Shown: positions 9,919-63,657 of the stretch, in pieces
How the letters are laid out: every line of letters begins with the position of its first letter
Position numbering within the stretch: the stretch's first letter is position 1
From: Mya arenaria
Taxonomy: Eukaryota; Mollusca; Bivalvia; Myida; Myidae
Assembly (NCBI RefSeq): GCF_026914265.1
Contig: NC_069124.1
Span: forward strand, 13,161,723 to 13,225,722
DNA: 64,000 nucleotides
Direction: 5' to 3'
Notes under the pieces: model-generated
What the model was told of the DNA's origin: nothing
Seen by the model: only the letters and a program-made list of their open reading frames with translations
Database searches by the model: none
Translations under genes and position numbers: made by a program

Positions 9919-11159
9919 ACACGCCCACCTGTACGTGCCACGCACACCCGTACATGCTACGCCTGTTTTAGATGCCACGCGCACGAACTCCGTCTCGCAC
10001 TGTACAAAACAAGCCTTGTTCACTTCGAAGTTCAACTATGTTTATTAAACAATTACAACGACCTTCTTCGGATAGTGACATTTTATTCGGATGGTGTCAT
10101 GTGTTCATTGAAGTTGAGTTGGTGATTTGTGAAGAAAGTCATGTATATGTGTATATATACTCGTACATGCATGATCAAAATATACATACACTTTGAGAAC
10201 TCTACATTCAATGGTGGTTTTGTAGAAGAGGTCTGAAATGTCTCCAAAATATCCAATTGTTATAGATATATGAGTGTTAAACATTTTGTTATTTCAAAAT
10301 CATGAAAAGTACTAATTTTTGCAGCACCTAGATAGAAATAGGTCACGGACAAAGATGAATCAATGGTATTTATCGTTAGTTATTTTACATTTTTTTTCTC
10401 ATTTTTTACATGTATATAATGATAAAGAGATGTTTATTTAGTTCCGTTTTATGTGTTCAATCGTCCCCGGAGATGGTAAGTCATGGGGAATATAGTACAC
10501 AACAAAATACTGTTGTGTATGTGACATCTGATTTAGATTTTCAAGAAAATACTCACAAAATATAATTCTTTTTTGGTTTACTAAAGTGGTAGTAAAGTGG
10601 TAGACAGTCGAACACACGTATACAGATCTGCGCATTTTCTTATACTTTTAATGTTGTTTTGACAACTTTTGTAAGTAGTTAACCTTTTTGCTTTTTATGA
10701 GTAGGTGTAAATTATATTATTGCAATACTTACTTGTATTTGTGTTGTTTTTCATTCTGATTATGCATTAGATTTAAACCTCGTTCCAATAGATATCTAAC
10801 ATTTATATTTTTTCACATTAAAATTTGTTCACTTTATTGCATTTTCTCAGTGTAAATATCTGTAATTTCTTTTCTAATAAAATTCCGAACAATAACTATT
10901 TTGTATCTTACATTATCTGGGTTAGTTTTTACGCTCATGCCCCTGCCAGTAGTATCACCAGCAGGGTTTACATTAAGAAAGTCTATTTTACAATTATTAA
11001 ATGTTACGTATTGTATATTGCCACTTTTTTCACTTATGTAACTTTAATATCCGTTATCCTTATTTGAACGAAGTTAAATGTCATTTACTGGTATAACGTG
11101 TATTTCAACATGCATGCACTATAACTACTAAATAGTTTTACACTGCGAAATGAAATCAG
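9919..11159 (+). other. Lipoxygenase 3' untranslated region and intergenic DNA
   Basis: AT-rich sequence with no supported gene. A canonical AATAAA lies at 10876-10881, about 960 bases after the lipoxygenase stop, and is the best visible poly(A) signal, though several T-rich and A-rich stretches make the true end uncertain. The short open frames here show no recognisable protein. Confidence 0.5.
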
Positions 11160-14100
11160 AAGGGGCATGAAACAAGCCTTTGCAATGCATGTAAACCAGT
11201 CAATCATAAACTATCAGAAGGGATACGAAACAAGCCTTCACAGTACATGTAAACCAGTCAATCATAAACTATCATAAGAGATATGAAACAAGCCTTTTTA
11301 CAGTACATGTAAACCAGTCAATCATAAACTATCATAAGAGATATGAAACAAGCCTTTTTACAGTACATGTAAACCAGTCAATCATAAACTATCAGAAGGG
11401 AAATGAAAGAAGTCTTAACAATACATGTAAACCAGTCATATAATATCAAAACATAAATGAAATAAGCCTTCACAGTACATGTAAACCAGTCAACTACAAG
11501 AAAGCATTTACAGTATATGTAAACCAGTCAATCATAAACTATCTGAAGGGAAATGACACAAGGGTTTACAGAACATGTAAACAAGTCAATCATAAACTAT
11601 CACAAGCGAAATGAAACAAGCCTTTACAGTACATGTAAACCAGTCAATCATAAACTTTCAAAAGATATATGAAACGAGCCTTTACAGTACATGTAAACCA
11701 GTAAACCATAAACAATCAGAAGGGAAATGAAATAAGCCTTAACAGTACATGTAAACCAGTCAATCATAAACTATCAGAAGAGAAATGAAACAAGCCTTCA
11801 CAGAATATGTAAACCAGTCAACTACAAGCAAGCATTTACAGTATGTGTAAACCAGTCAATCATAAACTATCAGAAGGGAAATGACACAAGGGTTTACAGT
11901 ACATGTAAACAGGTCAATCATAAACTGTCAGAAGGGAAATGAATTAAGCCTTTACAGTACATGTAAACCAGTCAATTATAAACCATCATAAGAAATATGA
12001 AACAGAAAACCAGTTAATCATAAACCATAATTGGTGATATGAAACAAGCCTTTACAGTACATGTAAACCAGTCAATCATAAACTATCATATGAAATATGA
12101 ATCAAGCCTTTACAGTACATGTAAACCAGTCAATCATAAACTATCATATGAAATATGAATCAAGCCTTTACAGTACATGTAAGCCAGTCAATCATAAACC
12201 ATCAGAAGAGAAATGAAACAAGCCTTCACAAAATATGTCAACCAGTCAACTACAAGCAAGCATTTGTAGTATATGTAAACCAGCCAATCATAAACTATCA
12301 TAAGAGATATGAAATAAGCATTTACAGTACATGTAAACCAGTCAATCATAAACTATCAGAAGCGAAATGAAACAAGCCTTTACAGTACATGTAAACCAGT
12401 CAATCATAAACTGTCAGAAGGGAAATGAATCAAGCCTTTACAGTACATGTAAACCAGTCAATTATAAACCATCATATGAAATATGAATCAAGCCTTTACA
12501 GTACATGTAAGCCAGTCAATTATAAACTATCAGAAGAGAAATGAAACAAGCCTTCACAAAATATGTCAACCAGTCAACTACAAGCAAGCATTTACAGTAT
12601 ATGTAAACCAGCCAATCATAAACTATCAGAAGGGAAATGACACAAGGTTTTACAGTACATGTAAACCAGTCAATCATAAACTATCAGAAGCGAAATGAAA
12701 CAAGCCTTTACAGTACATGTAAACCAGTCAATCATAATTTAACTATCATAAGAGATATGAAACAAGCCTTTACAATACATGTAAACCAGTCAACCATAAA
12801 CTATCAGAAGGGGAATGAAATAAGCCTTCACAGTACATGTAAACCAGTCAATCATAAACTATCAGAAGGGAAATGAATCAAGCCTTTACAGTACATGTAA
12901 ACCAGTCAATTATAAACCATCATAAGAAATATGAAACAAGCCTTTACAGTACATGTAAGCCAGTCAATCATAAACTATCAGAAGAGAAATGAAACAAGCC
13001 TTCACAAAATATGTAAAGCAGTCAACTACAAGCAAGCATTTACAGTATATGTAAACCAGCCAATCATAAACTATCAGAAGGGAAATTACACAAGGTTTTA
13101 CAGTATATGTAAACCAGCCAATCATAAACTATCATAAGAGATATGAAATAAGCATTTACAGTACATGTAAACCAGTCAATCATAAACTATCAGAAGCAAA
13201 ATGAAACAAGCCTTTTCAGTACATGTAAACCAGTCAATCATAAACTGTCAGAAGGGAAATGAATCAAGCCTTTACAGTACATGTAAACCAGTCAATTATA
13301 AACCATCATAAGAAATATGAAACAAGCCTTTACAGTACATGTAAGCCAGTCAATCATAAACTATCAGAAGAGAAATGAAACAAGCCTTCACAAAATATGT
13401 CAACCAGTCAACTACAAGCAAGCATTTACAGTATATGTAAACCAGCCAATCATAAACTATCAGAAGGGAAATGACACAAGGTTTTACAGTACATGTAAAC
13501 CAGTCAATCATAAACTATCAGAAGCGAAATGAAACAAGCCTTTACAGTACATGTAAACCAGTCAATCATAATTAAACTATCATAAGAGATATGAAACAAG
13601 CCTTTACAATACATGTAAACCAGTCAACCATAAACTATCAGAAGGGGAATGAAATAAGCCTTCACAGTACATGTAAACCAGTCAATCATAAACTATCAGA
13701 AATGAAATGAATCAAGCCTTTACAGTACATGTAAACCAGTCAATTATAAACCATCATATGAAATATGAATCAAGCCTTTACAGTACATGTAAGCCAGTCA
13801 ATCATAAACTATCAGAAGAGAAATGAAACAAGCCTTCACAAAATATGTAAACCAGTCAACTACAAGCAAGCATTTACAGTATATGTAAACCAGCCAATCA
13901 TAAACTATCAGAAGGGAAATGACACAAGGTTTTACAGTACATGTAAACAAGTCAATCATAAACTATCAGAAGCGAAATGAAACAAGCCTTTACAGTACAT
14001 GTAAACCAGTCAATCATAATTAAACTATCATAAGAGATATGAAACAAGCCATTACAATACATGTAAACCAGTCAACCATAAACTATCAGAAGGGGAATGA

Positions 14101-14520
14101 AATAAGCCTTCACAGTACATGTAAACCAGTCAATCATAAACTATCAGAAATGAAATGAATCAAGCCTTTACAGTACATGTAAACCAGTCAATCATAAACT
14201 ATCAGAAGAGAAATGAAACAAGACTTCACAGAATATGTAAACCAGGCAATCATAAACTATCAGAAGAGATATGAAACAAGCCTTTCCAGTACAGAAAACC
14301 AGTCAATCATAAACCATAATTGGTGATATGAATCAAGCCTTTACAGTACATGTAAACCAGTCAATTATAAACTATCATATGAAATATGAATCAAGCCTTT
14401 ACAGTACATGTAAACCAGTCAATTATAAACTATCATATGAAATATGAATCAAGCCTTTACAGTACATGTAAACCAGTCAATTATAAACTATCATAAGATA
14501 AATGAAATAAGCCTTTATAG
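11160..14520. repeat. 58-bp satellite with an ~834-bp higher-order repeat
   Basis: About 58 tandem units of some 58 bp with the core CAGTACATGTAAACCAGTCA then ATCATAAACTATCAGAAG and ATGAAACAAGCCTTTA. Variant units (CTTCACAAAATATGTCAACC, CAACTACAAGCAAGCATTTA, GACACAAGGTTTTACAG) recur in fixed order: blocks starting at 12483 and 12931 are repeated at 13317 and 13765, an offset of 834 bp in both cases. Left and right ends are less regular. Open frames of 60-80 codons here are satellite artefacts. The array lies between the lipoxygenase and the receptor gene. Confidence 0.93.
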
Positions 14521-14968
14521 TACAAATTACGCATGTTAAAGGGTTCCATTAACGTTAATACATAAATTATAGCTGTGACGGAGTTCGTCAACATTGCAAC
14601 ATTGCAAATAAAAGAGCAAACATTAAAACATTTTTATGTTTTTAATACAAAGTTAACAAATCTGGGACAATTGTTATTTTCGTTTAAACTATTCGCTATA
14701 AGAAAGGTTAATTAGAAAATGTGCAAGAGGCCTAATGCCGCCAGTATTTTTTTTTTTCGTGAATATCTACAAACAGACTGGATAAAATAGAGAGTCTTTA
14801 AACTAGTAATTAGTTTCGCTTTCAGAATACTATACTACAGCACTATGTTCATCTTATAATTTAACCCACTCATGCTTCTTATCAGTAGTAAAGCTTGATG
14901 TTTGTTTAACTATATCTTCAAGAGCTGCATTAACCTTTAGTTAAATATGTATTCTTCGTATAATTATC

Positions 14969-32200: not shown

Positions 32201-34326
32201 AAAAGATGATTAAAGTAATGCAATCAAATAAAAGCATTATACAATTTATAAGTTTAATAAAAATCTAACGAATATCTTAAAACCGTAAATATGTCTGGGA
32301 GGACTATGTCCGCCAGTGCAACATGGATGCACGGGAACGGCGGGAGATTATGTCCGCCAGAGGAACATGGGGACAGCGGGACGGCTGTGGATTATTTCCA
32401 CCAGAGTAACACGGGAACACGGGGACGGTGGTGATTATTTCCGCCAGAGTAACATGGGGACACCGGGACGGCTGTGGATAATTTCAACCAGAGTAACATG
32501 GGAACACGGGTACGGTGGTAATTATTTCCGCCAGAGTAACATGGGGGCACGGGGATGGCTGAGGATTACTTCCGCTATAGTTTCATGGGGGCACGGGGAT
32601 GGCAGGGGATTATTTCCGCTATAGTTTCATGGGGGCACGGGGATGGCAAGGGATTATGTCCGCTATAGTTCATGGGGACACGGGGATATAAGGGGATTAT
32701 TTCCGCTATAGTTTCATGGAGGTACGGGGACGGCGGGGATTATTCCCGCCAGAGTAACATGTGGACACGGGGATTGCAGGGGAATATTTCCGCCAGAGTT
32801 ATTATAATGAGGACACGGGGACGACAGGGGATCGTTTCCGCCATAGTTTCATGGGGGCACGGGGACGGCGGGGATTATTCCTGCCAGAGGAACATTAGGA
32901 CACGTGGACGACAGGGGATAATTTGTTCGTACCCGGCCTAGTCCCAAACAGTATAAATTTATTATATATAAATGGTACTTATAATTCAAGAATGTGTGAA
33001 CGGGACGTACGGAGAAAACTGCGCTCAGATTTGCGGCCGTTGTGTAAATGACACGGTCTGTGACCTTTACAACGGAAGTTGTGAATTCGGATGCGCGGAG
33101 GGATTCACTGGGCTGCAGTGTTCACCAGGTTGGTAGAACTACTGTAGACGCACTAAAACAATGAAATTATATTTCAAAGTCTCAATATGATTGGTTTATG
33201 TTTTAAATTGCAATCATCAATTACATAATAACAAATAAAACAAATGGTTTATACAATTTTCAATTTAATATACTGATAATCTAATATTCTTCAGCTTTAT
33301 ATTTATATATTGAATGAATAAAGTTTCAGTCTTTCAGACTTAATTTAATTCCTCTCGCATGTAATCCTGATATTGTATTTTCTCCAATTAGCGAGACAGA
33401 CGGGTGATGATGATAGTTCCGATGATGGGAACAACACGGGTGCCATTGTCGGCGGCATCTTTGGCGCTTTGGGAGTCATTGCGGTCGGTGCGGTCGCGTA
33501 CAAGTTCTACATGAGACAAAAGTGAGTGTGTCAGTGATCCGCTTGTGGTTTTTGTTTTGATTTACACGTACATGTAAAAAATGACAAGCTGAATATAACA
33601 ATTATACGACGTATATCAGTTAGAGTAAATGAACATATTTTTTTGTCTTCTACAACTTATGAAACTTTCAGGTCTCCTGGAGGGAGCGCGATGAAATACA
33701 ATCCATCTCTTGCCAACTCGGGGTACACAAGCACAACTTCCATGGCATCATCACCGGAACACCAATATGCCGGAATTTCTCCTGTGGGTACGTATACTCT
33801 ATATCCGACATATTGTAACTTACAGTTCGTACGCAATTAAGAAAAAATCCACTAGAAGCTTCGTAAATTACTTAGACAGATTCTTATACTCTGTAGACAG
33901 ATTTGACCCGCGTATGTACGCATATTATTCAGGCAGATTGCACCCGAGGATAAAAAACTCTTGAAACAGATTTCACCTAAGGGTACGTTTACTCCTAGAG
34001 TACGCATTCTCTTAGGGTACGTTTACTCCTAGAGTACGCATTCTCTTAGGGTACGTATACTTTTCAGACATAGTGTACCTATAAGAGTACGTATTTTTGT
34101 GGACAGAATAAGACTAACACTGTTTTGACAAATATCATCTTAGTGGAGTACGTACCCTTTGTAGACAGACTCCACCTTCAAGACTAACACTGTTTTGACA
34201 AATAGCATCTTAGTGGATGAGTTTCATTTACCATGACGCAAAGAAATATGCATTCATAATGAGTTGGTATTTTCAGTAACCGGAAGGGTCGAGTCCTACA
34301 GTTTTGATTCCAACACGAGATTATAA
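16969..34326 (+). CDS. Type I membrane receptor: three FTP lectin-like domains, 12 EGF-like repeats
   Basis: Complete 22-exon gene, 1102 residues. Exons: 16969-17032, 17288-17521, 19975-20178, 20738-20878, 21532-21741, 21975-22175, 23192-23329, 23489-23626, 24380-24517, 25707-25841, 26000-26137, 26437-26580, 26879-27013, 27477-27707, 28218-28427, 28811-28948, 30343-30480, 32008-32145, 32991-33128, 33392-33521, 33672-33787, 34277-34326. Order: signal peptide (1-21), FTP1, EGF1, FTP2, EGF2-8, FTP3, EGF9-12, acidic stalk, transmembrane helix (about 1021-1043), tail of about 55 residues. All extracellular exons are phase 1-1. EGF repeats have eight cysteines in the MEGF/SREC/Draper style. The combination suggests a cell-surface recognition or scavenger receptor, as MEGF10/11 and Draper are in phagocytosis; ligand and role are inferred. 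The tail has YAGI and YSFD tyrosines but no clear paired ITAM. The start was chosen because the first codon gives a hydrophobic leader that splices in phase. Confidence 0.9.
17755..17832 (-). repeat. Weak tRNA-derived sequence (B-box-like)
   Basis: On the minus strand a GGTGGCCGTATGGACTAG A-box-like stretch is followed by GGGTTCGAACCCC, a perfect RNA polymerase III B box. The stems of a real tRNA do not pair, and there is a long A/T run between the boxes. It is most likely a SINE or pseudo-tRNA remnant. Confidence 0.35.
18130..18501 (+). mobile_element. MITE, TTAAAG family, copy A
   Basis: A 372-bp element with short inverted ends (TTAAAGTGACACTCTTATTC and the complement of TGCATCTTTAA). The internal landmarks GATAACAAGAT, AAGGTAGAAATACCGTGTTT and CCTTCATAAGAACCATTGTT are shared with three further copies in this gene. 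No coding capacity. Confidence 0.75.
19430..19762. repeat. Fold-back repeat with ~45-bp arms
   Basis: The left arm at 19430-19473 (GGAGCTCCTCGGCCATTGTT then AAAACAACATCGGATGTAT) is the inverted complement, with a few differences, of 19714-19762 (ATACATCCGAGGTTGTTTTC then GGCCGAGGAGTTCGGCTCC). The spacer is about 240 bp without a gene. It probably represents a non-autonomous DNA element in intron 2 of the receptor. Confidence 0.6.
20738..20878 (+). other. Exon for EGF-like repeat 1
   Basis: A single 141-base phase 1-1 exon encodes one repeat beginning ACDDGTYGSGCEERCGKCA and ending GWTGDMCWAS. Eight cysteines are spaced about C-x8-C-x3-C-x2-C-x5-C-x6-C-x4-C-x8-C. It stands alone between FTP1 and FTP2, whereas other repeats occur in runs. 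Confidence 0.85.
21029..21392 (-). mobile_element. MITE, TTAAAG family, copy B (inverted)
   Basis: Reverse-orientation copy of the element at 18130. It begins TTTAAAGATGCACTCTTACT and ends with the complement of the TTAAAAGTGACA terminus. ACACGGTATTTCTACTTA and ACAATCTTGTTATCAG mirror internal landmarks of copy A. Confidence 0.75.
21532..22175 (+). other. Exon pair for FTP domain 2
   Basis: Phase-1 exons 21532-21741 and 21975-22175. The first half contains NASLAVDGCADQG, a CC pair and EIGRIVVYGETGG; the second ends ALVVCEVQAYIG. The acceptor before 21532 (ACTAAAG) is weak but is the only one that keeps phase. The arginine and aspartate of the fucose motif after VYG are missing here (ETGG), so classic fucose binding is unlikely in this domain. 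Confidence 0.75.
22341..22719 (+). mobile_element. MITE, TTAAAG family, copy C
   Basis: A third copy of the family, starting TTTCAAGTGACACTCTTATT and sharing GATAACAAGATTGTAACCGT and CACAAGGTAGAAATA with copy A. It ends near AGTGTATTCTTAAG. More diverged at its termini than copies A and B. Confidence 0.7.
24719..25206. mobile_element. MITE-like element containing a tRNA-like segment, copy 1
   Basis: A 488-bp element with inverted ends (AAGCAACTGTGCACCAGA on the left; TCTGCTGTACAGTCCCTTTT on the right), homologous along its length to 48592-49059. Inside, at about 25013-25083, a tRNA-like head with A box (TAGCCCAGTGGATACGAC) and B box (GGGTTCGAACCC) is well preserved. Stems of a functional tRNA do not form at the ends, so it is a tRNA-derived insert, not a tRNA gene. 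Confidence 0.7.
25260..25609 (+). mobile_element. MITE, TTAAAG family, copy D
   Basis: A fourth copy, about 350 bp, beginning TTAAAGTAACATTCGTATTT and ending GAGTGCAATCTTAAA. Shares AAATGACTGGTAGG, CATAAGGTCGAACTACCG and CATAAGAACCATTGTG with the other copies. It lies directly downstream of the tRNA-containing element. Confidence 0.7.
26218..26288. repeat. (ATT)n microsatellite
   Basis: About 23 uninterrupted trinucleotide units in the intron between EGF repeats 6 and 7. The long isoleucine open frame through it is an artefact. Confidence 0.97.
27477..28427 (+). other. Exon pair for FTP domain 3
   Basis: Phase-1 exons 27477-27707 and 28218-28427. The first half contains SASLAVDGNWEQ, PWWYVDMQGVSRIESVLVYG; the second ends SLSLCEVRVLG. 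This copy has the canonical AVDGN and PWW landmarks of the family but RNG in place of RxD after VYG. The intron position matches that of the other two FTP domains. Confidence 0.8.
28562..28653. repeat. Short palindromic element with perfect 20-bp arms
   Basis: CGAACCCCGTTGGCTCGAAC at 28566-28585 is exactly inverted at 28630-28649, with a further related CGAGCCAACGAG in the loop. It resembles a remnant of a DNA-transposon end. It lies in a receptor intron. Confidence 0.65.
31555..31625. mobile_element. Terminal fragment of a hAT-like MITE
   Basis: Repeated ATTCGAATA words end in CGTATGCATCCCTAA, similar in style to the ends of the element at 56976-57790 (TGCCATCCCT). Only one end is present, so it is a truncated remnant. 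Confidence 0.4.
32295..32936. repeat. G-rich ~43-bp minisatellite
   Basis: About 14 units with a core GATTATTTCCGCCAGAGTAA followed by CATGGGGACACGGGGACGGC. Variants with GCTATAGTTTCATGG alternate in the second half. It lies in the intron between EGF repeats 11 and 12. Forward open frames across it are repeat artefacts. Confidence 0.9.
33392..34326 (+). other. Transmembrane and cytoplasmic exons of the receptor
   Basis: Exons 33392-33521 (acidic stalk GDDDSSDDGNN and helix GAIVGGIFGALGVIAVGAVA), 33672-33787 and 34277-34326. The tail has about 55 residues with KYNPSL, SGYTST, HQYAGI and VESYSF tyrosines. YAGI fits a YxxPhi sorting motif. An NPxY or full ITAM is not evident, so signalling of the Draper type is not supported by sequence. 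It ends NTRL. Confidence 0.85.
34003..34215. repeat. Short local duplications in the last receptor intron
   Basis: A unit of about 41 bp (GGGTACGTTTACTCCTAGAG, TACGCATTCTCTTA) is repeated directly, and a segment of about 43 bp (GACTAACACTGTTTTGACAA) occurs at both about 34111 and 34173. Confidence 0.75.
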
Positions 34327-35227: not shown

Positions 35228-38200
35228 ATGGATGTTTTGGAGCTTTGCGTTTCGGTTTTTCTTCTCGTCGTATCTTTTCATTCTACAGAGTCGCAAGGTA
35301 ATATCTTCCACATATCTATAATAAAGCAAACTATCGAGTGTAGTTAAAAGAGACTAGTACTTTGTCCAATTATGGGTCATACATAATCTACCATGTTGTC
35401 ATAGACATAGTTATATAGAAGTTCAATATTGTGTTGCTTGCTCCAAATATATTGTGTTGCTAGCTCCAAATATATTGTGTTGCTAGCTCCAAATATATTG
35501 TGTTGCTTGCTCCAAATATATTGTGTTGCTTGCTCCAAATATATTGTGTTGCTTGCTCCAAATATATTGTGTTGCTTGCTCCAAATATATTGTGTTCCTA
35601 GCTCCAAACATATTGTGTTCCTAGCTCCAAATATATTACGTTGCTTGCTCCAAGTATATTGTGTTCCTAGCTCCAAACATATTGTGTTGCTAGTTCCAAA
35701 TATATTACGTTGCTTGCTCCAAGTATATTGTGTTCCTAGCTTCAAAAATATTGTGTTCCTAGCTCCAAATATATTGTGTTGCTAGCTCCAAATATATTGT
35801 GTTGCTTGCTCCAAATATAGTGTGTTGCTTGCTCCAAATATAGTGTGTTGCTTGCTCCAAATATAGTGTGTTGCTAGCTCCAAATATATTATGTTCCTAG
35901 CTTCAAATATATTGTGTTGCTTGCTCCAAATATATTATGTTCCTAGCTTCAAATATATTGTGTTCCTAGCTCCAAATATATTGTGTTGCTAGCTCCATAT
36001 TGTGTTGCTTGCTCCAAATATATTGTGTTGCTAGCTCCAAATATATTGTGTTGCTAGCTCCAAATATATTGTGTTGCTTGCTCCAAATATAGTGTGTTGC
36101 TTGCTCCAAATATATTGTGTTGCTAGCTCCAAATATATTGTGTTGCTTGCTCCAAATATAGTGTGTTGCTTGCTCCAAATAAATTGTGTTCCTAGCTCCA
36201 AACATATTGTGTTCCTAGCTCCAAATATATTGTGTTGCTAGCTCCAAATATATTGTGTTGCTTGCTCCAAATATAGTGTGTTGCTTGCTCCAAATATATT
36301 GTGTTCCTAGCTCCAAACATATTGTGTTCCTAGCTCCAAATATATTGTGTTGCTAGCTCCAAATATATTGTGTTGCTAGCTCCAAAAAAGATTGTATTGC
36401 TAGCTCCAAATATATTGCGTTGCTAGCTCCAAACATATTGTGTTGCTAGCTCAAAATAGATTGTGTTGCTAGCTCCAAATATATTGTGCTGCTAGCTTCA
36501 AATGTATTGTGTTCCTAGCTCCAAATATATTGTGTTGCTAGCTTCAAATGTATTGTGTTCCTAGCTCCAAATATATTGTGCTGCTAGCTTCAAATGTATT
36601 GTTTCAAAAATATTGCGCATACACTCATAAGAGAAATCATAGGAATGTTATTAAGACGGGCAATTGTTCATCTACAATTTGTGTGTCATTTCACTCGATC
36701 TATCTAAAGTTATACCAGTAAGTTAAGTTACACTTACATGAAATTCATAGGAATGATAGTCTGTGCGGACAGTTGTGCACAAGCTAGTTGTTTCACATTT
36801 TACGCAGTCTTTGGGCATTCATTATTTCTGTGATTGATATATTTAAAACACTTTTGTTGTACTTTCTTCTTTTGAACTTTTGTTACGGTACCGAATTCCG
36901 ACATGCTTCGTGTGTCGTCCTTTGCCAAATACATTTTTCATGTTACATGAACATCACTTGTGACGTAAATAAATGTAAAATTTAACTTGAACTGTATCGT
37001 TCTTCGATTGCAGTCAATCCACAAGAGTTTTTAAATAATTACTGTGACCAACTTGACGTCATAAATGAGGGTGTTTCTGGCCAAGTGACGTCACCACAGT
37101 ACCCGGGAAATTATCCTCGGTAAGAGAAATGTTCAATTATATATGTTATAAGTTTTCGTCCGGAAATATCAGGATCTAACTGTTTGTCTCTTATAAGTTT
37201 TCGTCGGAACGTAAAGCTCCATTTGCCAACATATATACATGATTTTGCAACAAACAAATTGAGTTTTATTAACATCAGTTCGACGAAAAGGGGTCACTGC
37301 CTGGCCGTCCGACAGGCGGAGGTGTCCATAATTCTGGAGGTGACATCACTGGACTTGGAGGACAGCTCCGGTTGCGCCGCCGACAACGTTTCAATCTACA
37401 CTGGTACGTTATCGCAGTTATCGATGTTATTGTTACTGGAGGGTGACGTCACTGGACGTTGAAACAGCCCGAGGTTAGCCACCGAAAACTCCTCCAAATA
37501 TGTTGGTATGTAATCCATGTTTGGTAATTATTAATGGAGGCGGAGGACAGTCCGGTTGAGCTACCGACAACTCATTCATAAATGCTGGTACGTTATCCCA
37601 TCTACATCATTGTTACTGGAGCTGAAGGACAGCCTGGGTAAGCCTCCGACTACATGTATTCTAAATTCAAATGTTTGAAATATAGTCCAATGATTGTTTT
37701 TTTTTAATATTTATACAGTTATGAGTCGCCGCATTACTGCCCCCCCCCCCCACCAATTTTAGCTGAAACATAATTATTACTCCTTTAAGTTCAGCTGAGA
37801 CATTAGTATTCCCCCTTCAAGTGGACATATTACTATTCCGAATGTCTCCTTCAAGTTCAACTGACACACCATTATTTCGCCTTCAACTTCAGCCGATTTT
37901 TTACTATTTCGAAAAACCCCTTTAAGTTCAGCTGACACATTACTATTCCGAATGTCCCATTTTTGATCATCTGACAAATTACTAAGTCCCCTTAAAGTTC
38001 AGCTGACACATTACTTAGTCCCCTTAAAGTTCAGCTGACACATTTCGTATCCCGAATGTCCCCTTGAAATGCAGCTAACACTTTACTATTCCAAATGTCC
38101 CTTTCAATTTCAGCTGATACATTACCATTCCCAGTTGCGCTGACACATTACGATGCCCCCTTCAAGTTCTGGTGACACATTACTATCCCCTTCTAGTTCA

Positions 38201-39974
38201 GATGACACATTACTATCCCCCTTTTAGTTTCAATTGACACATTACTACCACCCAACCCCCTTCAAGCTCAGCTGACACATGACTATCCCCTTCAAGTTCA
38301 GCTGACAAATAACTACCCCTCCCTTCAAGCTCAACTGGCACATAACTATCCCCCTTCTTGTTCAGCTGACACATTACTAAACCCCTTCTAGTTCAGCTGA
38401 CACATTACTTAACCCCCTTCCAGTACGCTTACACATTAATATGTCCCCTTAACGTTTAGCTGACACATTACTATCACCCTTCTAGTTCAGTTGACACATT
38501 ACTATGCCCCTTAAAATTCAGCTGACACATTACCATCCCCCGTCACGTTCAGCTGACACATTACTATACCCCTTAAAGCTCAGATGACACATTACTACCC
38601 TCTTCTAGTTCAGTTGACACATTACTATATCACCTTAAATGTCAGTTGACACATTACTATATCACCTTAAAGTTCAGTTGACACATTACTATATCACCGT
38701 CAAGTTCAGCTGACACATTGATATGTCCCCTTAAAGATAAGCTGACACATTACTACCCTCTTCTAGTTCAGTTGACACAGTATTATGCACCCTTCAAGTT
38801 CAACTGACACATTACTATGTCCCCTTTAAGTTGAGCTGACACTTTACTATGTCCTTACAGTTAAGCTATCACATTATTATGCCCACTTCTAGTTCAGCTG
38901 ACACATAAGTGTTTTCCCTTCAAGTTCAGCTGACACATTAATATTCCCCCTTAAAGTTCAGCTGTTACATTTCACTCCCTTTCTAGTTCAGCTGACACAT
39001 TACTCTGTCCACTTCAAGTTTAGCTGACACATTACTATGTCCCCTTCAAGTTCAACTGACACATAACTATATGTCCCCTTCAAGTTCAACTGACACATTA
39101 CTATATGTCCCCTTCAAGTTCAACTGACACATTACTATGTCCGCTTCTAGTTCAGCTGCCACCTAAGTGTTTTCAATTTAAGTTTAGCTGACACATTTAT
39201 TGCGTAATGTATTTCAGAGACGAAGGATTTTACTCTCACGGCTATCCTGTGCGGCAATGACCTTACCCAGATGCCCAAACTAGATGCCGGAAGGGCCGCC
39301 CTGTTACAATTCTGGTCCAATAACGAGACCGAGGGGCAGGGATTTGTTATAAAATACTCAACAAAACAAAAGGAAATAGGTGACATAAGTATAACGTGTG
39401 GTTATTTCTTTTTCAATTTTAATGCTATACTCAAAATGATGTTCTTTTTTTTGCGTTCACAGGGTCGTAGCTAGCACCAGAAAATAATAGGAGTCAGTAA
39501 AATTATATTTTTTTTCTTCTGTTTTATAATCAAAAACGTTTTCTATGTTGCTGCTGTGTGGTGACAGGCTGAAGTTATGCACATAAAACATAGCCATGGC
39601 GATAACGTTGTTTTAATGTTTATTTTTTAATGATCACTTAAAAGACTGCATAATTGTTTGTTGTTACCTTATATCACTGTAAAGTAACATATAAACATAA
39701 CGTTTCGCGGCAGAACATTTTTATGCGTATTTTTTTATGTTTACATCAATTTTCAGAGCACGACCGGGATTCAGACCGCCATGATGACGGTGACGGTAGT
39801 GGCCGCTCGAACAACTGGGGCGTGGTCATCATAGTGGTTTTCTCCGTCCTGATTGCCGCCATGGTCGGCGCGACAGTGACAATCTGCATCTTTCACCGTC
39901 GGCATAAGGCCGCCAAGGTGGTCAAGTTTAGCGGAGATGTCGTCGAGCCATCTGGTGTGGCCAAGAACGTTTAA
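35228..39974 (+). CDS. Small single-CUB-domain type I transmembrane protein
   Basis: Five exons, 35228-35297, 37014-37119, 37291-37403, 39218-39379 and 39757-39974, giving 222 residues in one continuous frame. The first exon encodes a signal peptide (MDVLELCVSVFLLVVSF). Exons 2-4 encode one CUB domain: four cysteines (NNYCDQL, GHCLAV, SGCAAD, ILCGND), the signature SPQYPGNYPR, LDLEDSS-C-AADNVSIYT, and a closing GFVIKYS. Exon 5 gives a His/Asp-rich stalk, a helix WGVVIIVVFSVLIAAMVGAT (about 171-196), a basic HRRHKAAK stop-transfer and a tail of about 26 residues. An alternative acceptor at 37278 would add four residues. CUB domains bind proteins or glycans outside the cell; the role of this protein is unknown. 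One isolated CUB with almost no tail suggests a co-receptor or adhesion accessory; this is inference. Confidence 0.82.
35425..36612. repeat. 23-bp minisatellite, about 50 units
   Basis: Tandem 23-bp unit with the core ATTGTGTTGCTAGCTCCAAA, with variants GCTTGC and CCTAGC in place of GCTAGC. Because 23 is not a multiple of three and the unit lacks stops in several frames, long open frames occur on both strands; none is a gene. It lies in intron 1 of the CUB gene. The right end decays from 36,380. Confidence 0.96.
37333..37665 (+). repeat. Three decayed tandem copies of the CUB exon-3 donor junction
   Basis: The end of exon 3 and the start of its intron (CTGGAGGTGACATCACTGGA ... ACTGGTACGTTATCGC) recur as diverged copies starting at about 37434, 37532 and 37613. 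The first two keep a donor-like end (GTTGGTATGTAATCC, GCTGGTACGTTATCCC); the third is cut short. Spacing is about 80-100 bp. Their frames are broken, so they look like non-functional exon duplicates. Confidence 0.75.
37740..39200. repeat. ~32-bp minisatellite in CUB intron 3
   Basis: About 44 units with the core GTTCAGCTGACACATTACTA followed by TGTCCCCTTCAA. Units vary in the spacer, and a poly(C) tract opens the array at 37741. The last unit ends 20 bp before the splice acceptor of exon 4 (39218). Most units carry CAGCTG. Confidence 0.94.
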
Positions 39975-55480: not shown

Positions 55481-57795
55481 ATGATAGCATTTAGTGAAAT
55501 CATTAAAAATGCATTTACATTTTCGAATATTGTTTCTCAAGCATTTGGTGAGGAAGTGAGGGCATGGAATGAAAAATCTGTTCAAAACGCCCTCAGTTGG
55601 GCTCACTACTGCATGAAGGTGGGTTATTGCTTAAAGAGCGGAACGGCCATGCTTATTTTCTCCTTTCATATATTATTTTCATGACAGTTATTTGAAAAAT
55701 TGTGTATTTTTGCATTTTAAGTTAAAGAAAAATATTGAAAATTGTCACCAAATCTGCAAATTCTCACCTGGGCTAAAGCAAAATAATGCACAAGTCAATT
55801 TTAACCTCGGCCCCCCCATGTCCGGGGGTATACTGGGGATAGCTGGGGAAATGGGCCGTGTTTTACCTTTTCAGGTTGCCCCGCACTGCCTTTTGAATGC
55901 GGTGGTTTTATCATCGCAGCACAAATAGTGGGTAATGGTCCTTACCTATGGTGCCTGGGGTGCGGGGGCAGTTGGAGGGGATTAAACCAGTCCCCTCAGG
56001 GCGGGGATTTTACCCGGGCTTAGCTGGACCAAAAGACAAAATCCCCGCTTTTCCCCGGACCTAGTGGAGCTGTGGTTACAATTTGGCGCATAAGTTTAAG
56101 CAGAAATATGAATAACCACTTTGCATATATTTCTTATATACTGTATACTCCAAAACATTTTTTATCAGTGTATCTTAACCAGTAAGCTCAGTTTTCCATC
56201 CTGGTTTACTGTCGCATCATTGCAGGTCGCAGAAGAGACAAAGGGCTGTAGTTACCGATCTGATTTAGATAGACATATTCAGGGTTTGACGATTTTACTA
56301 AACCCTGTATCCCTATTGCATCTTGACCTGAACTTGCTGACCAAGGCACCATCGATTCTGACTAAGGTTAAATTTTCATTTTAAACATGATAGCAACATG
56401 ATAGCAAATACTGCTGAGTACAAACTACTTATCATATTAGTTGATTAATTGTCTATTTATTTTAAAACATACATGTAATAACTAGCAAATACTGCTGAAT
56501 ACAAACATGTATTTGTCATTAATAGTTGATTATTGCGGCTCGCCTTAAGTTGTTACTGTCATTTGAATACTATTCATAATCTGCTGATTGTTCAACTAAA
56601 AATGTGTTTAAGAAGTTTGTATATAATCGTGACCATTTGTCATTTTGTTTTGTTTGATCTGTCAATGGTTTTGAATGTGATGCTTTTATTTCAGATCTTG
56701 TTAAAAAATCCTCACCTCCCTCGGCATCTATCTGCTGTGGTTCAATCCAATGGGTCTCCAGAATATTCCCAGGTTCCCCTAGATGTCTTACCTGTATACA
56801 GAGTGTTGTGCAGTGAAGAACTAGCCATACAAGGCTGTGTTAGAGACCAGGGACAGCATGTTCTGGACAGGCTGGTGTTCTTACATGGCCTGACAAACTC
56901 CTCACACAGGTTTACATCTTTAAATGGCTTTGGAATATAAACACTTTAGTTTAGATTATTATTATTATTATTATTAGGGATGGCAATGAGTAGTAAAATT
57001 GGTACTCGAGTACTCGGACAATCTTTCGATCGAGTACTCGGGTACTCGATTACTTGGAAAAAAAATGTATTTGGGAAAGACAAGATCATGTATACATGTA
57101 TCGTTCATGGCATTGTGCGTTGGTCATATTTTTGGTCAATTCCATCTATAAATCAGAATTTCATAAAGCAATTAATTAAAATTGGGGACAAAATACACCT
57201 CTGTCTTAAACCTTGTTTTACCTTGATGCAGCAAGTCACATTCTTATAAACTGCCTGCGTGATACATTTTGCTATTAATAGTACTGTATTATTGTTGTTT
57301 ACCTCATTAATATTCATAATTCTTGATTTCAGATATCAACCAATCAATTGTGATAAATCATTACAAAAATAGTTAAAATACGCCGATTAAGAAATCAATG
57401 CTCGTAATGGTCGTTACTCGTTCGCTCGTTAGCATCCATTGTTTGGTGAAAGGTCTGTATTTGGTAAACAATAGAATTGTGTAGGTGAAAGTTCCGCTAT
57501 CAAAACTTTGCTAATTGACATCAGTTCTAATTGGAAATAGGGCCCCTTTGTTGACAGTTTGCAACTCTCAACTAATTTATTAGCCTAAGGGTCAATTGTG
57601 TACACAGCGGGGATTAGAGGGACCGTATATTGTCCTCTTTGCAACTAACCAGATCTGTTACTTCGTCTGTAAATCGTGTATTTGGTGATGTTTATAGATT
57701 TTTTAATTTTTTTCCGAGTACTTGAGTAGTGATTTGGCACTCGAGTACTCGGACGATCAATCGAGTGCTTGGGTACTCGTTGCCATCCCTAATTA

Positions 57796-57855
<60 letters not shown>

Positions 57856-60800
57856 TTATTTGATTAAGAACTCATTTTTAGTTTCCATTTTACAATAGGT
57901 TGTTATGATCCTGTTTTATAAACTTAAAAAATTCATTTTGATAGCACATGTGGTTGTACCTTTCTATGTTATAACACTGGTAGAAAGTGTATATTCTGCA
58001 ATAAAAATATGGAAACTAAAGCTTTTAGAAACGAAAACACCATTTTGTAAAATTTAAAGCTTTTCAGATGTAATTTTAAAATTTTATTAAGATGCTTCCT
58101 TAAGACTGTACCTATCTTTTTATGTCTATGTAACTGTTTTCATGTATGTTCGTCATTAATGTATATGGAGCTTTTGAGTTTGGTGTTTCGTTGAAACAAA
58201 TTTCTTTTTTAGATTTGAGAAGTTTATTGATAGACTTATAGCAGACTTATCATCGCTGCCAAATTGCCAGGTACATGTATATAATTAATTTTAATTTATC
58301 TTATTTCAAATATTATTCCTTTAAACTAGTGTAAAAGTGTTCTTTGATAAAAACCAATATGCAACATTTTATAATTGGGTAAATTATCATTGTAGTCTTG
58401 GATAAAAATGAGAGCTTAAATGAATAAAATACTAAAGATATAATTCATTGCAGGACATCATTTTGTGCACGCTAGCTTAAGTAAATGGACAAAAATGAGA
58501 GTGTCAATAAGTAAAATACTTAAGCTATAGTTCGTTGCAGGACATCATCCTGTGCACTCTCCTGGCTGAGGTAAAGAACAACAACGGTTATGAAGCAGCT
58601 GTAAACCTCAAGGAGAGAATTTCGTCTTTGATGTTTGAAAAACATATGAGGTAATTATTAAGACAACAGTTTTTACGTTGTTTTTTTACATGTTCAAAAA
58701 AGAACTTAAATATCAGCGTTTATGTATGTACAAGTTTTAAACCAGTCACACCTGTTTTGCACACAGAAAATGTTTGGAAGTCACTGGTCATGAATTTGTA
58801 GAAATTAGCTTTGTATTTCTTAGTATTGTACAACTACAGGTTCAGCCATACCATTTTACAATGTATGCGAAACTACTGAAGTAAACAATATACTCAAAAT
58901 ATCAATAAAATAGATTGATAAAACCCATCACTGATTGTTTCGTTTGAGTTCCCTCTTCTGTGATGTCATGTATAGACACATAGCTACTGAGCTTGGGATT
59001 ACACAGATCTATGCCTTGACAGCATATTAACCCTGTCACCCTGTACCACCCTTCCCCTTCGGTTTTTAGTTCAAATTTGGGGGTTTTGGTATGACAAAAC
59101 TTTGACCTGTCAAAATTTTATTACGCAACTGCGTATATGCATATAATTATAGTCAGCTATGTGGCTGACTTATTGGACCCTGTACCTCTTTGATGTCACT
59201 GATTGTTCTGTTTAAGTGCATTGTACTCCTGTGATGTCACTGATTGTTCTGTTTTAGTGCCCTGTACTCCTGTGATGTCACTGATTGTTCCGTTTTAGTG
59301 CCCTGTACCCCTGTGATGTCACTGATTGTTCTGTTTTAGTGCGAGGTACTCCTGTGATGTCACTAATTGTTCTGTTTTAGTGCCCTGTACCCCTGCGATG
59401 TCACTGATTGTTCTGTTTTAGTGACCTGTACCCCTGCGATGTCACTGACTGTTCTGTTTTAGAGACCTTTTCCCCTGCAATTTCACTTTGTCACTGACTG
59501 TTCTGTTTTAGTGCCCTGTACTCCTGCGATGTCACTGACTGTTCTGTTTTAGTGCCCTGTACTCCTGTGATGTCACTGATTGTTCTGTTTTAGAGACCTT
59601 TTCCCCTGTGATGTCACTGATTGTTCTGTTTTAGTGCCATGTACCCCTGCGATGTCACTGATTGTTCTGTTTTAGTGCCCTGTACCCCTGCGATGTCACT
59701 GACTGTTCTGTTTTAGAGACCTTTTCCCCTGCGATATCACTGATTGTTCTGTTTTAGAGACCTTTTCCCCTGTGATGTCACTGATTGTTCTGTTTTAGAA
59801 ACCTTTTCCCCTGCGATGTCACTGATTGTTCTGTTTTAGTGCCCTGTACCTCTGCTATGTCACTGACTGTTCTGTTTTAGAGACCTTTTCCCCTGCGATG
59901 TCACTGATTGTTCTGTTTAAGAGACCTTTTCCCCTGCGATGTCACTGATTGTTCTGTTTAAGAGACCTTTTCCCCTGCGATGTCACTGATTGTTCTGTTT
60001 TAGTGCCCTGTACCCCTGCGATGTCACTGATTGTTCTGTTTTAGTGCCCTGTACCCCTGCGATGTCACTGATTGTTCTGTTTTTGAGACCTTTTCCCCTG
60101 CGATGTCACTGATTGTTCTGTTTTAGTTCACTGTACTCCTATTGAGATGTCACTGATTGTTCTGTTTTAGTGCCCTGTACTCCTGTGGTGTAACACTAGT
60201 GTGTTCAGCTTGTGCCCTGGATGACCAGTTCTGTACAAAGTATCTTGAGTTTCTGCAACACTGGGGTGACAGCATGAAGCCACAATATGGCCTGACGCAG
60301 GAAGGACAACTGTACTGTTGGAGGTTATACTATTCAAGATTTTAAATCTTTGATGAGGTAAACTGAGGTAAAATGAGGATATGATGTAAACAAAAAATCA
60401 CCCTTTTAATATTTCAAAGTTAAAATATGTAATATGAATCTTTTCCTACATTTGTACATGGAACTACAAACACGATAAGGTATTTTGTATAACAGCACAA
60501 ATAATGTCCAAAATAAACGACATTTAGATTTAACTTCAATGTTCTTGAAAAACATACCCTTAAGTATTACACTTATTTAGTAATAATATTTTATTCCTAA
60601 TGTAAGTGCCAGCACGGAAGATGTGTGAGTGAACTAGAACATTTTCTATTATATGATGAATACGCTTTAAGTTCGACTATTCGAAGAATAAGGAGGGCTA
60701 TACTATTCGCCCCAGCATCGGCGTCAGGGTCGGTGTCGGTGTCCGGTTAAAGTTTTAGGGCAAGTTAAAGTTTTAGGGCAAGTTGGGATTTTCACTTATA

Positions 60801-63657
60801 AGTCCAATACCCTTTATTCAATTGACTTAATACTTCACACAGTTGTTCAGGGCCATCACGTAATGAGGTTAGATAACTCCATATTATCCTTTATACAAAT
60901 TATAGCCCCTGATTGACTATGGAACTTAGGTTAAAGTTTTAGGGCAGGTTGGGATATTTATTAATTACTTCTATACCATTCGTTCAATTAACTTAATACT
61001 TCACACAGTTGTTCAGGACCATCACACAATGAGGTTACATAAATCCATATTATCTTTAATTCAAGTTATGGCCCCTGATTGACTTAGGTTAAAGTTTTAG
61101 GGCAAGTTAAAGTTTTAGGGCAAGTTGGGATTTTCACTTATAAGTCCAATACCCTTCATTCAATTGACTTCATACTTCACACAGTTGTTCAGGGCCATCA
61201 CGTAATGAGGTTAGATAACTCCATATTATCCTTTATACAAATTATAGCCCCTGATTGACTATGGACCTTAGGTTAAAGTTTTAGGGCAGGTTGGGATATT
61301 TATTAATTACTTCTTTACCATTCGTTCAATTGACTTAATACTTCACACAGTTGTTCAGGACCATCACACAATGAGGTTACATAACTCCATATTATCCTTA
61401 ATTCAAGTTATGGCCCCTGACTGACTTAGGTTAAAGTTTAAGGGCAGGTTAAAGTTTTAGGGCAAGTTGGGATTTTCACTTATAAGTCCAATACCCTTCA
61501 TTCAATTGACTTCATACTTCACACAGTTGTTCAGGGCCATCACGTAATGAGGTTAGATAACTCCATATTATCCTTTATACAAATTATAGCCCCTGATTGA
61601 CTATGGACCTTAGGTTAAAGTTTTAGGGCAGGTTGAGATATTTATTAATTACTTCTTTACCATTCGTTCAATTGACTTAATACTTCACAAAGTTGTTCAG
61701 GACCATCACACAATGAGGTAACATAACTCCATATTATCCTTAATTCAAGTTATGGCCCGTGACTGACTTAGGTTAAAGTTTTAGGGCAGGTTAAAGTTTT
61801 AGGGCAAGTTGGGATTTTCACCTATAAGTCCAATACCCTTCATTCAATTGACTTTACACAATTGTTCATGGTCATCACATAATGAGGTAAGATACATGTA
61901 ACTCCATATTATATTATATACAAATTATTGCCCCTGATTGACTATGGAACTTCGGTTAAAGTTTTAGGGCAGGTTGGGATATTTATTGATAACTTCTATA
62001 CCGTTCATTCAATTGACTTAATACTTCACACAGTTGTTTAGGACCATCACACAATGAGGTTACATAACTCCATATTATCCTTAATACAAGTTTTGGCCCC
62101 TGATTGACTTAGGTTAAAGTTTAAGGGCAGGTTAAAGTTTTAGGGCAAGTTGGGATTTCATTAAAAAAAACTTCTATACCCTTCATTCAATACACTTAAT
62201 ACTTCGCAGAATTATTGACGACCATCTTACAACAAGGAACATAACTTCAATATAGCCCTAAATACAAACTATTGCCCTTGAATGTTTTCTTTTAATTTCT
62301 TTCGAAAGGCACACCTTTATATTCCTAACCACATTTTCATAAAGGGAAAAAAAGTTATTTGAATGACTTGCGTCATTGTTTTCGGGCGTTCTCTTGTTAG
62401 GGCAGCGTCAAAGTCGCCTTATGTATCGAATAATTTTAGCTAGGTTTGACATAAAGAGACCAAACTTGGTATATACAAAGAGTTTATGGAGGCCTTTTAT
62501 GGGAATGTGTTTGAGGCCCCTAGGATCAAGGTCAAGGTTACTATTAATAGAAAAAGGGTTGGTATTAAATAACTTAAGTAAGGGTCTTCATATTGGTACC
62601 AAATTTGGTATATAGGAAGAGTTTATAGAGACCTTTCCTGAGATTGTGTTTTGGGCCCAGAGAGTTATGGTCTAGGTCAAGGTCAAAATAGAAATATAGT
62701 TAGTACTGAATAACTCAAGTAAGTGTTGACATCGTGTGACCAAACTTGGTATATAGGATAAGTTTATGCAGAGCTTTCATGGATTGCCTTTTGGCCCCCT
62801 AGGGTCAAGGTCACTGTTACTAAAAATAGATAACTGTTTCAGTTATAGTTGACATACTGTAACCAAACTTGATATGTAGGAATAGTTTATGGAGGTCTTC
62901 CATGGGATTGTGTTTTTTCTAAAAAAAAATAGAAGATACAGTTGAAACTGATTTTTTTCTGCCAATCATTAAAAACCTGGTTTTGTCACATTGCGATTCT
63001 TGTTCACTTTTCAATTTGATTGTTTTATTGCTTTTGACAGGCACATATTACATCGTTATTGTATTCACATCTAAGTCAAAGCGGCGTAGTCGAGCGCGCT
63101 TACAGCTCTGAGTTTTTATGTCGCATACACAGTATGGAATGCATATACTTGTTTGTATCATGTAGTCTGAGGTCGTCGTCGTCCTCGTCTGTGGCGTCGC
63201 ACTTTTATTTTTCGCTCTCTAACTTGAGCATTTGTTATCCAATCTACCAAACTTGGTTACACTGATGATTACCATACCATCGCAACTGAGTTCTGTCAAC
63301 AGCCAGATCGTACTATTAACACTTCAGTATTAAAAAAAATACTAACTTCTCATTCCAAAACGTAGGCACCACCAACAGGCGTCACATTGAACTCGAGGAA
63401 TTCCAGATAAAAACAAAACTCTCCGAAAAATTGAACAATTTAAAAGTTTTATTTTATAACTACTCTTTTTTAATTTCAGATATGAGCAGACAGACTTGGA
63501 GTTAAACCGAAGCTTCAAAAGACTAGCGACTTTGATTTCTGCGTTGCAAAACAAAAACAAGAAAACAAGATTAAAAGTTTCTGAGATGATGAAGGACAGT
63601 TCTAAACGGACCTTTGTTAATGTTTGGAAAGATATGGAACACAAATGTATAGCATGA
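55481..63657 (+). CDS. FANCF: Fanconi anemia complementation group F protein
   Basis: Seven exons: 55481-55618, 56226-56366, 56695-56909, 58213-58270, 58541-58650, 60171-60323, 63480-63657; 330 residues in unbroken frame (human FANCF has 374). The N-terminus MIAFSEIIKNAFTFSNIVSQ and VRAWNEKSVQNALSWAHYC align by eye with the human start and TWDPATVRRALQWARYL. RFEKFIDRLIADLSSLP with DIILCTLLAE matches the ERLPQNNFLKVIAVALL region, and CTKYLEFLQHWGDSM matches the SPVYLGLLTDWGQRL helix of the helical-repeat C-terminal domain. FANCF is an adaptor of the nuclear Fanconi core complex that holds FANCC/E and FANCM together for FANCD2 ubiquitination in crosslink repair. Human FANCF is a single exon; this gene is split by six introns. 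Identification rests on recalled motifs, without a database search. Confidence 0.83.
55787..56090 (+). mobile_element. PIF-like MITE in FANCF intron 1
   Basis: A 304-bp copy in the same orientation as that in the H1 intron: TGCACAAGTCAATTTTAAC start, GGGGATAGCTGGGGAAATGG and TTAGCTGGACCAAAAGAC inside, GTTACAATTTGGCGCA end. Flanked by TAA on both sides (55784-55786, 56091-56093), supporting a 3-bp TWA duplication. Confidence 0.75.
56976..57790. mobile_element. hAT-like MITE inserted in an (ATT)n microsatellite
   Basis: An 815-bp element with inverted ends AGGGATGGCAATGAGTA and GGGTACTCGTTGCCATCCCT, each followed inward by CGAGTACTCGGAC(A/G)ATC-type repeats for about 50 bp. It sits between (ATT)n on both sides (56957-56975 and 57793-57854), so it split a microsatellite. 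The ends suggest a hAT relative; the repetitive target hides the duplication. No coding capacity. Located in FANCF intron 3. Confidence 0.75.
58400..58540 (+). repeat. Tandem copy of the FANCF exon-5 acceptor junction
   Basis: TTCATTGCAGGACATCATTT then TGTGCACGCTAGCTTAAG at 58444-58482 duplicates the real junction (TTCGTTGCAGGACATCATCC, TGTGCACTCTCCTGGCTGAG) 87 bp downstream, with shared upstream intron (AAAAATGAGAG, AATAAAATACT). The copy runs into a stop (TAA) soon after the acceptor, so use of it would break the frame. Confidence 0.8.
58974..59167. mobile_element. Short CAG-end MITE, copy 2
   Basis: Diverged copy of 41832-42016. It interrupts the left edge of the 41-bp array: one array-like unit (CACTGATTGTTTCGTTTGAG, TGTGATGTCA) lies before it and the main array resumes after it. 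Confidence 0.6.
59168..60170 (+). repeat. 41-bp minisatellite built from the FANCF exon-6 splice acceptor
   Basis: About 24 units of ATGTCACTGATTGTTCTGTT, TTAG, TGCCCTGTACTCCTGTG. Every unit contains the same polypyrimidine-AG acceptor and the first 15 or so bases of exon 6, which itself starts at 60171 with TGCCCTGTACTCCTGTGGTG after TTCTGTTTTAG. A second unit type has AGACCTTTTCCCCTGCG after the AG. The array is thus an amplified intron-exon boundary. Confidence 0.93.
60660..62265. repeat. ~340-bp tandem repeat made of two related ~165-bp halves
   Basis: About four and a half units. Each has two halves sharing GGTTAAAGTTTTAGGGCA, TTCAATTGACTT, ACTTCACACAGTTGTTCAGG and ATAACTCCATATTATCC. 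One half has AAGTTGGGATTTTCACTTAT and AGGGCCATCACGTAATGAGG; the other has GGTTGGGATATTTATTAATT and GGACCATCACACAATGAGG. It begins after GGAGGGCTATACTATTCGCC and a GTCGG-rich stretch at 60690-60750. It lies in the last FANCF intron. Confidence 0.88.
62370..63270. repeat. Dispersed-repeat region with ACCAAACTTGGTATATA units
   Basis: At least four diverged units of about 140 bp with GACCAAACTTGGTATATA, GGAAGAGTTTATGGAG, CATGGGATTGTGTTT and GGGTCAAGGTCA landmarks from 62445 to 62920, ending near CTACCAAACTTGGTTACACT at 63246. It follows directly on the 340-bp repeat, so both may belong to one composite mollusc repeat. No coding capacity. Confidence 0.65.

Follow-up and report, generated by a model that had tools for sequence, protein, structure and literature searches.

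How is the start of a last exon chosen when the acceptor in front of it occurs in about two dozen nearly identical copies? This question is raised by a FANCF gene of the clam Mya arenaria, which lies in the 64,000-nucleotide stretch of DNA analysed here (the window), and in which a minisatellite array covers the 3' end of intron 5 and reaches 17 nt into the last coding exon. An answer depends on whether the gene and its last exon are correctly modelled, on what the repeat unit contains, on whether similar arrays occur elsewhere in the same genome, and on how well the copies have been kept.

Gene model and identity

The gene is modelled at 55481-60345 on the + strand, with six coding exons and a predicted product of 278 residues:

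55481..55618, + strand: FANCF coding exon 1 (ATG, GT donor, FANCF profile 3-44 matched)
56226..56366, + strand: FANCF exon 2 (AG/GT boundaries, frame open)
56695..56909, + strand: FANCF exon 3 (AG/GT boundaries, frame open)
58213..58270, + strand: FANCF exon 4 (AG/GT boundaries, frame open)
58541..58650, + strand: FANCF exon 5 (donor CATATGAG/GTAATT; phase 2, ends AG)
60171..60345, + strand: FANCF exon 6, the last coding exon (frame; TAA at 60343-60345)
60512..60517, + strand: AATAAA, candidate polyadenylation signal (sequence; fits a terminal exon)

Searched with Pfam family PF11107 (FANCF), the product scores 54.6 bits (E 1.2e-14) over residues 6-257 and profile positions 3-277 of 346, and thus passes the curated cut-off of 24 bits. 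A FANCF-family search of the whole genome picked up this gene through its exon 1; a second, weaker match, on another chromosome, falls under the cut-off at 16.1 bits. A phmmer search of the product against PDB sequences gave three matches at E values up to 10, and a solved FANCF was not among them; the product has probably diverged too far for a single-sequence search of the PDB. The name of the gene is taken from the Pfam match.

The acceptor array at the intron 5/exon 6 junction

59178..60185, + strand: 41-bp minisatellite, 24.3 copies, 87% matches (TRF, unit table)
59217..60170, + strand: decoy stretch, opening with the first decoy exon start and closing one base short of exon 6 (unit table, frames)
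60156, + strand: A in the branch-point-like motif CTGAT, 15 nt ahead of exon 6 (sequence; putative function)

The repeat unit spans the splice junction; it consists of 24 intron-like nt (ATGTCACTGATTGTTCTGTTTTAG) that end in the acceptor, followed by 17 exon-like nt. The AG of the acceptor is kept in 23 of 24 copies, the exception (exon-like part from 60086) reading TTTTTG, and three of the 24 carry TTTAAG at this place. A T-rich tract is also part of the unit, and CTGAT or CTGAC stands at the branch-point-like place in 23 of 24 copies. Within 59217-60170 lie the exon-like starts of 23 copies, 22 of them after AG, while the last copy has its exon start at 60171.

This last copy alone restores the FANCF C-terminus: when position 58650 is joined to 60171, the frame is open to the TAA at 60343-60345, and exon 5 runs into Ser-Ala-Leu-Tyr and then into the FANCF C-terminus. 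If any of the other 23 copies is joined to exon 5, a stop follows after 6-36 residues (a hypothetical product in the case of the AG-less copy). The anatomy that an earlier, sequence-only reading of this locus had proposed is therefore borne out. The amplification of an acceptor and the start of exon 6 into about 24 copies, with the real site last, agrees with the unit table and with the 24.3 copies counted by TRF; the donor that it named at 58650 is present (CATATGAG/GTAATT); and the claim that only the last copy continues into open coding sequence is confirmed by the stops behind all the others. Its extent needs correction, as there is indeed an array at 59168-60220, but this span is 10 and 35 nt wider than the TRF limits of 59178-60185.

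How alike the copies can be is best seen at the decoy at 59258, which matches the real junction without a difference for 42 contiguous nt, 25 of them upstream and 17 downstream. Where a decoy and the real site agree over as many as 42 nt, the choice between them must use a wider context. A 25-nt core of the unit was also searched, allowing up to 2 mismatches, in the 1,216,080,610 bases of 18 contigs, with the reversed core as a control; the core gave 24 matches, all of them in the FANCF array, and the reversed core gave 0 in the same 1.216 Gb, which excludes chance. Some 210-250 bp upstream of the array, at 58928-58966 of the window, there is an isolated and degenerate unit-like stretch (78.6% over 42 columns, E 4e-5).

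Support for exon 6

The FANCF profile score of exons 1-5 alone is 41.8 bits, which becomes 42.7 when a typical decoy tail is added and 54.6 with exon 6; with part of the exon 6 core masked, it is 41.1. The first nine residues after exon 5 behave differently. Deleting them lowers the score to 47.3 and masking them with X to 52.1, but reversed (56.0) or shuffled (56.1) they score slightly above the real order (54.6). We thus reject sequence support for the identity of these residues, and only the length of the exon 6 start is supported. Taken by themselves, exons 5 and 6 (94 residues) gave no FANCF match in a Pfam search, so it is in the context of the whole protein that the body and the length of exon 6 are backed.

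Ten AGs are found further inside exon 6, and just two of them, which would start the exon at 60273 and 60324, keep the frame; as judged by eye, neither is preceded by a good pyrimidine tract. As far as frame and FANCF homology show, exon 6 starts at 60171. The sequence-only reading had hung on two points, that exon 6 does not start elsewhere and that the unit shares its junction; frame and homology point to 60171, and the units of the array do carry the exon 6 junction.

A second duplication in the same gene

58399..58557, + strand: two-copy 87-bp tandem duplication over the exon 5 acceptor (TRF 1.8 copies, 83%)

The acceptor of exon 5 is also repeated, if only once; in a self-BLAST, 58486-58560 aligns with 58399-58473 (E 3.7e-18). 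Use of the decoy exon 5 start, at 58454, would lead to a stop after 8 residues (DIILCTLA, then stop).

Junction-spanning arrays elsewhere in the genome

We sampled 100 exon matches from the same genome, made up of 30 of the 96 listed myosin head matches and 70 of the 132 listed kinesin matches, and asked of their 200 match edges whether they lie in tandem repeats. This was so at four loci (L036, L037, L066 and L084). The two myosin loci, L036 and L037, were discarded: an array meets the match edge there, but in both some 50 nt separate it from the start of the exon at 1594. The other two are junction-spanning donor arrays, giving 2 in 100 sampled kinesin and myosin exon matches, a rough figure as the sample is biased to conserved motors and includes paralogous pairs.

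In L066 (797-1567; G000:C9, about 23518157-23518330, minus strand), a KIF1A-like kinesin P-loop exon is followed by 13 tandem donors of the form CCTCAG/GYAAGAG (11 GT, 2 GC), in steps of 53/59 nt. The first donor alone joins the next exon (LCEDLF) without a stop, each of the 12 later donors brings one, and the joined protein aligns with KIF1A with no gap at the junction. In L084 (732-1371; G000:C14, about 58289728), the donor of a KIFC-like kinesin P-loop exon starts a 17-bp array, which has 37.9 copies (TRF) to the end of the stretch examined, with 17 AGGT among about 38 units. In eight further regions, L072-L079, no self-repeats of at least 28 nt were found. A side observation, made away from the match edges tested, concerns L045 (1-567; G000:C4, about 42502187-42502753), where a 38-bp array of about 15 copies runs right up to a kinesin exon, so that the pyrimidine tract of the acceptor is part of the array.

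Tandem repeats of period at least 10 make up about 18% of the window, as compared to 5.95% of the sampled exon flanks. Besides the FANCF array, the window contains the following:

1-1488, 11155-14524, 32301-32924, 35426-36602, 37779-39162 and 60745-62281: other window minisatellites

Arrays cover 2.8% of positions within 50 nt of a match edge and about 8% beyond 350 nt; as the coverage falls towards the match edges, arrays are generally excluded from exon borders and not drawn there. A tandem-donor pattern searched through the genome, with both strands taken together, was found with gaps of 10-40 in 1518 places vs 957 for the reversed pattern, and with gaps of 40-70 in 2043 places vs 751; in both counts, overlapping places within one array enter repeatedly. 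Whether junction-spanning minisatellites are a recurrent feature of the clam genome, affecting hundreds of genes or more with the exon-proximal site being chosen, is a matter on which we find ourselves evenly divided.

Relation to known repeats at splice junctions

A study on amphioxus globin genes describes minisatellite-like duplications of intron-exon boundaries named 'mirages' (PMC3087553), a name that it traces to earlier work on Adh3 by Canestro and colleagues in 2002. Mirage units of Adh3 are given there as 10-72 bp; in BflGb6, with units of 150-160 bp, one haplotype carries 6 of them and another 3, and BflGb9 has one 157-bp duplicate (PMC3087553). According to the same study, the Adh3 data together with globin RT-PCR suggest that regular splicing is undisturbed in amphioxus (PMC3087553).

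As far as that account goes, the FANCF array resembles the globin mirages in that the unit spans a splice junction and in that many, though not all, copies carry AG/GT signals; in amphioxus, 5' and 3' boundaries are both affected, and the duplicates can be told apart from the authentic transcribed section. What we find in FANCF is a unit with both sides of the boundary, AG in 23 of 24 copies and one authentic junction, as in a mirage; that the authentic junction sits at the exon end of the array is our own reading and lies outside the mirage definition of these papers. The FANCF array differs from the globin mirages as described in that text in belonging to another phylum and a different gene, and in its roughly 24 units of 41 bp. 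Splicing of the amphioxus mirages was checked by RT-PCR, whereas the FANCF array is known from the genomic sequence of one assembly.

In lancelet PGBD5, a further report describes imperfect 60- and 108-bp tandem repeats over 5' and 3' splice sites, which its authors liken to mirages and think harmless to splicing, with Adh and troponin C also being mentioned (PMC3902484). Going by this description, the 108-bp repeat is a triplication and in another gene, unlike the FANCF array. The human interferon-inducible gene 6-16 (IFI6) reportedly carries a tandemly repeated splice donor at an exon boundary; it is said to differ from the FANCF array in being a donor instead of an acceptor and in its short unit. 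Our search of the open literature turned up no paper that brings minisatellites together with bivalve introns and splice sites, and junction-spanning arrays are not described in the available text of papers on an earthworm metallothionein gene, human DDX3Y and the zebra mussel genome. As far as the literature was searched, the FANCF array is thus of a known type of structure, a large acceptor mirage in a new phylum; what is new here is this large acceptor mirage in a clam, along with evidence of further cases in the same genome.

Unevenness within the repeat unit

In the FANCF array, 7 of 24 intron-like columns are variable vs 13 of 17 exon-like ones (Fisher p 0.004), a value to be read with the columns not being independent, as 9 of 24 copies share one common variant exon-like block; the exon-like half comes in two types, TGCCCTGTAC-like in 15 of 24 copies and AGACCTTTTC-like in 9. 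With an ungapped scan, which caught 23 of 24 FANCF copies and 10 of 13 KIF1A-like ones, unevenness is 7.1 in the FANCF array and 22.6 in the KIF1A-like one, as compared to 1.3-3.6 for five other arrays of the window. The least variable block coincides with the intron-like half in the FANCF unit, and in the KIF1A-like unit it contains the splice site.

A gap-aware scan treated in the same way 22 arrays from the window and from loci L012 upwards, all with a period of 15-100 and six or more copies. FANCF, at 5.1, comes fourth; the KIF1A-like array scores 6.7, L119 7.0, L045 7.3 and the KIFC-like donor array 2.9. In L119, about 200 nt lie between the array and the sampled exon, and the other end of the array is past the stretch; as far as is visible, this array is intronic. 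As this array, away from its sampled exon, outranks FANCF, we make no claim of constraint, and the notion that selection on the decoys keeps the intron-like half better was dropped, FANCF being only fourth of 22 with L119 above it.

Explanations for the array

We consider it probable, by analogy with amphioxus, that the FANCF array is a mirage of neutral decoys which is tolerated because the exon-proximal acceptor is chosen. A tandem duplication of a short segment across the intron 5/exon 6 junction would have come first, and the repeat would then have grown on its intron side by unequal exchange or slippage; because the unit spans the junction, an initial duplication and such exchange or slippage can account for it. 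Under exon definition, the splice site closest to the body of the exon is taken. Here, the 3' site would be paired across the terminal exon with the polyadenylation site and enhancers, so that the mature FANCF mRNA would come from the acceptor nearest the exon body and the upstream copies would mostly be silent decoys. Growth into the exon would break the protein, and growth into the intron need not, provided that the exon-proximal site is used. Array length probably varies between animals, and the cost may be minor at most, with occasional decoy use giving FANCF that lacks its last 58 residues.

The copy that yields an open frame adjoins the exon in each case: it is the last in the FANCF exon 5 and exon 6 acceptor repeats and the first in the KIF1A-like donor array, as expected if arrays grow only into the intron. 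This polarity fits a choice of the site nearest the exon body, and no function of the array is needed. Arrays are also common yet thin out towards exons, as for tolerated sequence. Against a neutral reading stand the undecayed state of the decoys, which have lost the AG in 1 of 24, and the better-kept intron-like half; plain neutrality predicts neither. In addition, exon definition does not outright exclude the decoys, since all of them lie upstream of the same polyadenylation site.

It is conceivable, though we think it unlikely, that splicing is noisy and that a sizeable fraction of transcripts uses the first-transcribed decoys, giving FANCF without its last 58 residues and with a short repeat-derived tail. 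Stops in a terminal exon mostly escape exon-junction-dependent decay; as the decoy stops are of this kind, the mRNAs that carry them would mostly be spared too, and array length would then tune the share of full-length product. The AG in 23 of 24 copies, the local context of the best decoy, which is identical to that of the real site, and the branch-point-like motif and T-rich tract of the unit all speak for such noise, as does the intron-like half being the better-kept one, although unevenness within the unit is not unique to the FANCF array. On the other hand, regular splicing in amphioxus is reported to proceed undisturbed by mirages, and strong misuse in a repair gene should be counter-selected. 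The sequence-only reading had suggested that splicing could be scanning-dependent or noisy, or that FANCF expression could be tied to array length; the amphioxus mirages, as the nearest precedent, speak against such effects.

The better-kept intron-like half would also suit acceptors that cooperate, e.g. as a platform recruiting branch-point or pyrimidine-tract factors, to aid the distant last exon, and that are kept by selection. This very improbable explanation draws further on the ungapped unevenness (7.1 and 22.6 for FANCF and the KIF1A-like array vs 1.3-3.6 in the five window arrays) and on the least variable blocks, which are the intron-like half and a block including the splice site, respectively. 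The gap-aware values tell against it, as 5.1 and 6.7 compare with 7.0 for L119, about 200 nt from its exon, and with 7.3 for the acceptor-abutting L045 array, and the KIFC-like donor array reaches only 2.9 and has 17 AGGT in about 38 units. A different origin, with the array born inside intron 5 and its last unit having become the acceptor, would make the first residues of exon 6 repeat-derived, in keeping with their exact identity not being backed by the FANCF profile (56.0 reversed and 56.1 shuffled vs 54.6). Their length is backed, however (47.3 with the nine residues deleted, 52.1 with X), and of the 10 inner AGs of exon 6, just 2 are in frame, neither having a good pyrimidine tract by eye; we regard such a takeover as quite unlikely.

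We thus return to a tolerated mirage, in which, again by analogy with amphioxus, splicing of FANCF may well be undisturbed. The finding extends to a bivalve a structure which, in the papers found, is described for lancelets, and places it within a DNA-repair gene. The choice among equal splice sites is usually studied in built minigenes, and clam FANCF is a natural case, offering 23 AG-bearing acceptors in a genome that also has donor arrays of the opposite polarity. At stake is whether a site is chosen by its place with respect to the exon, by the order in which the copies are transcribed, or by neither. If such arrays do recur, the clam genome would provide a natural experiment in which one site has to be picked out of as many as dozens of nearly identical ones, and in which array length is what varies.
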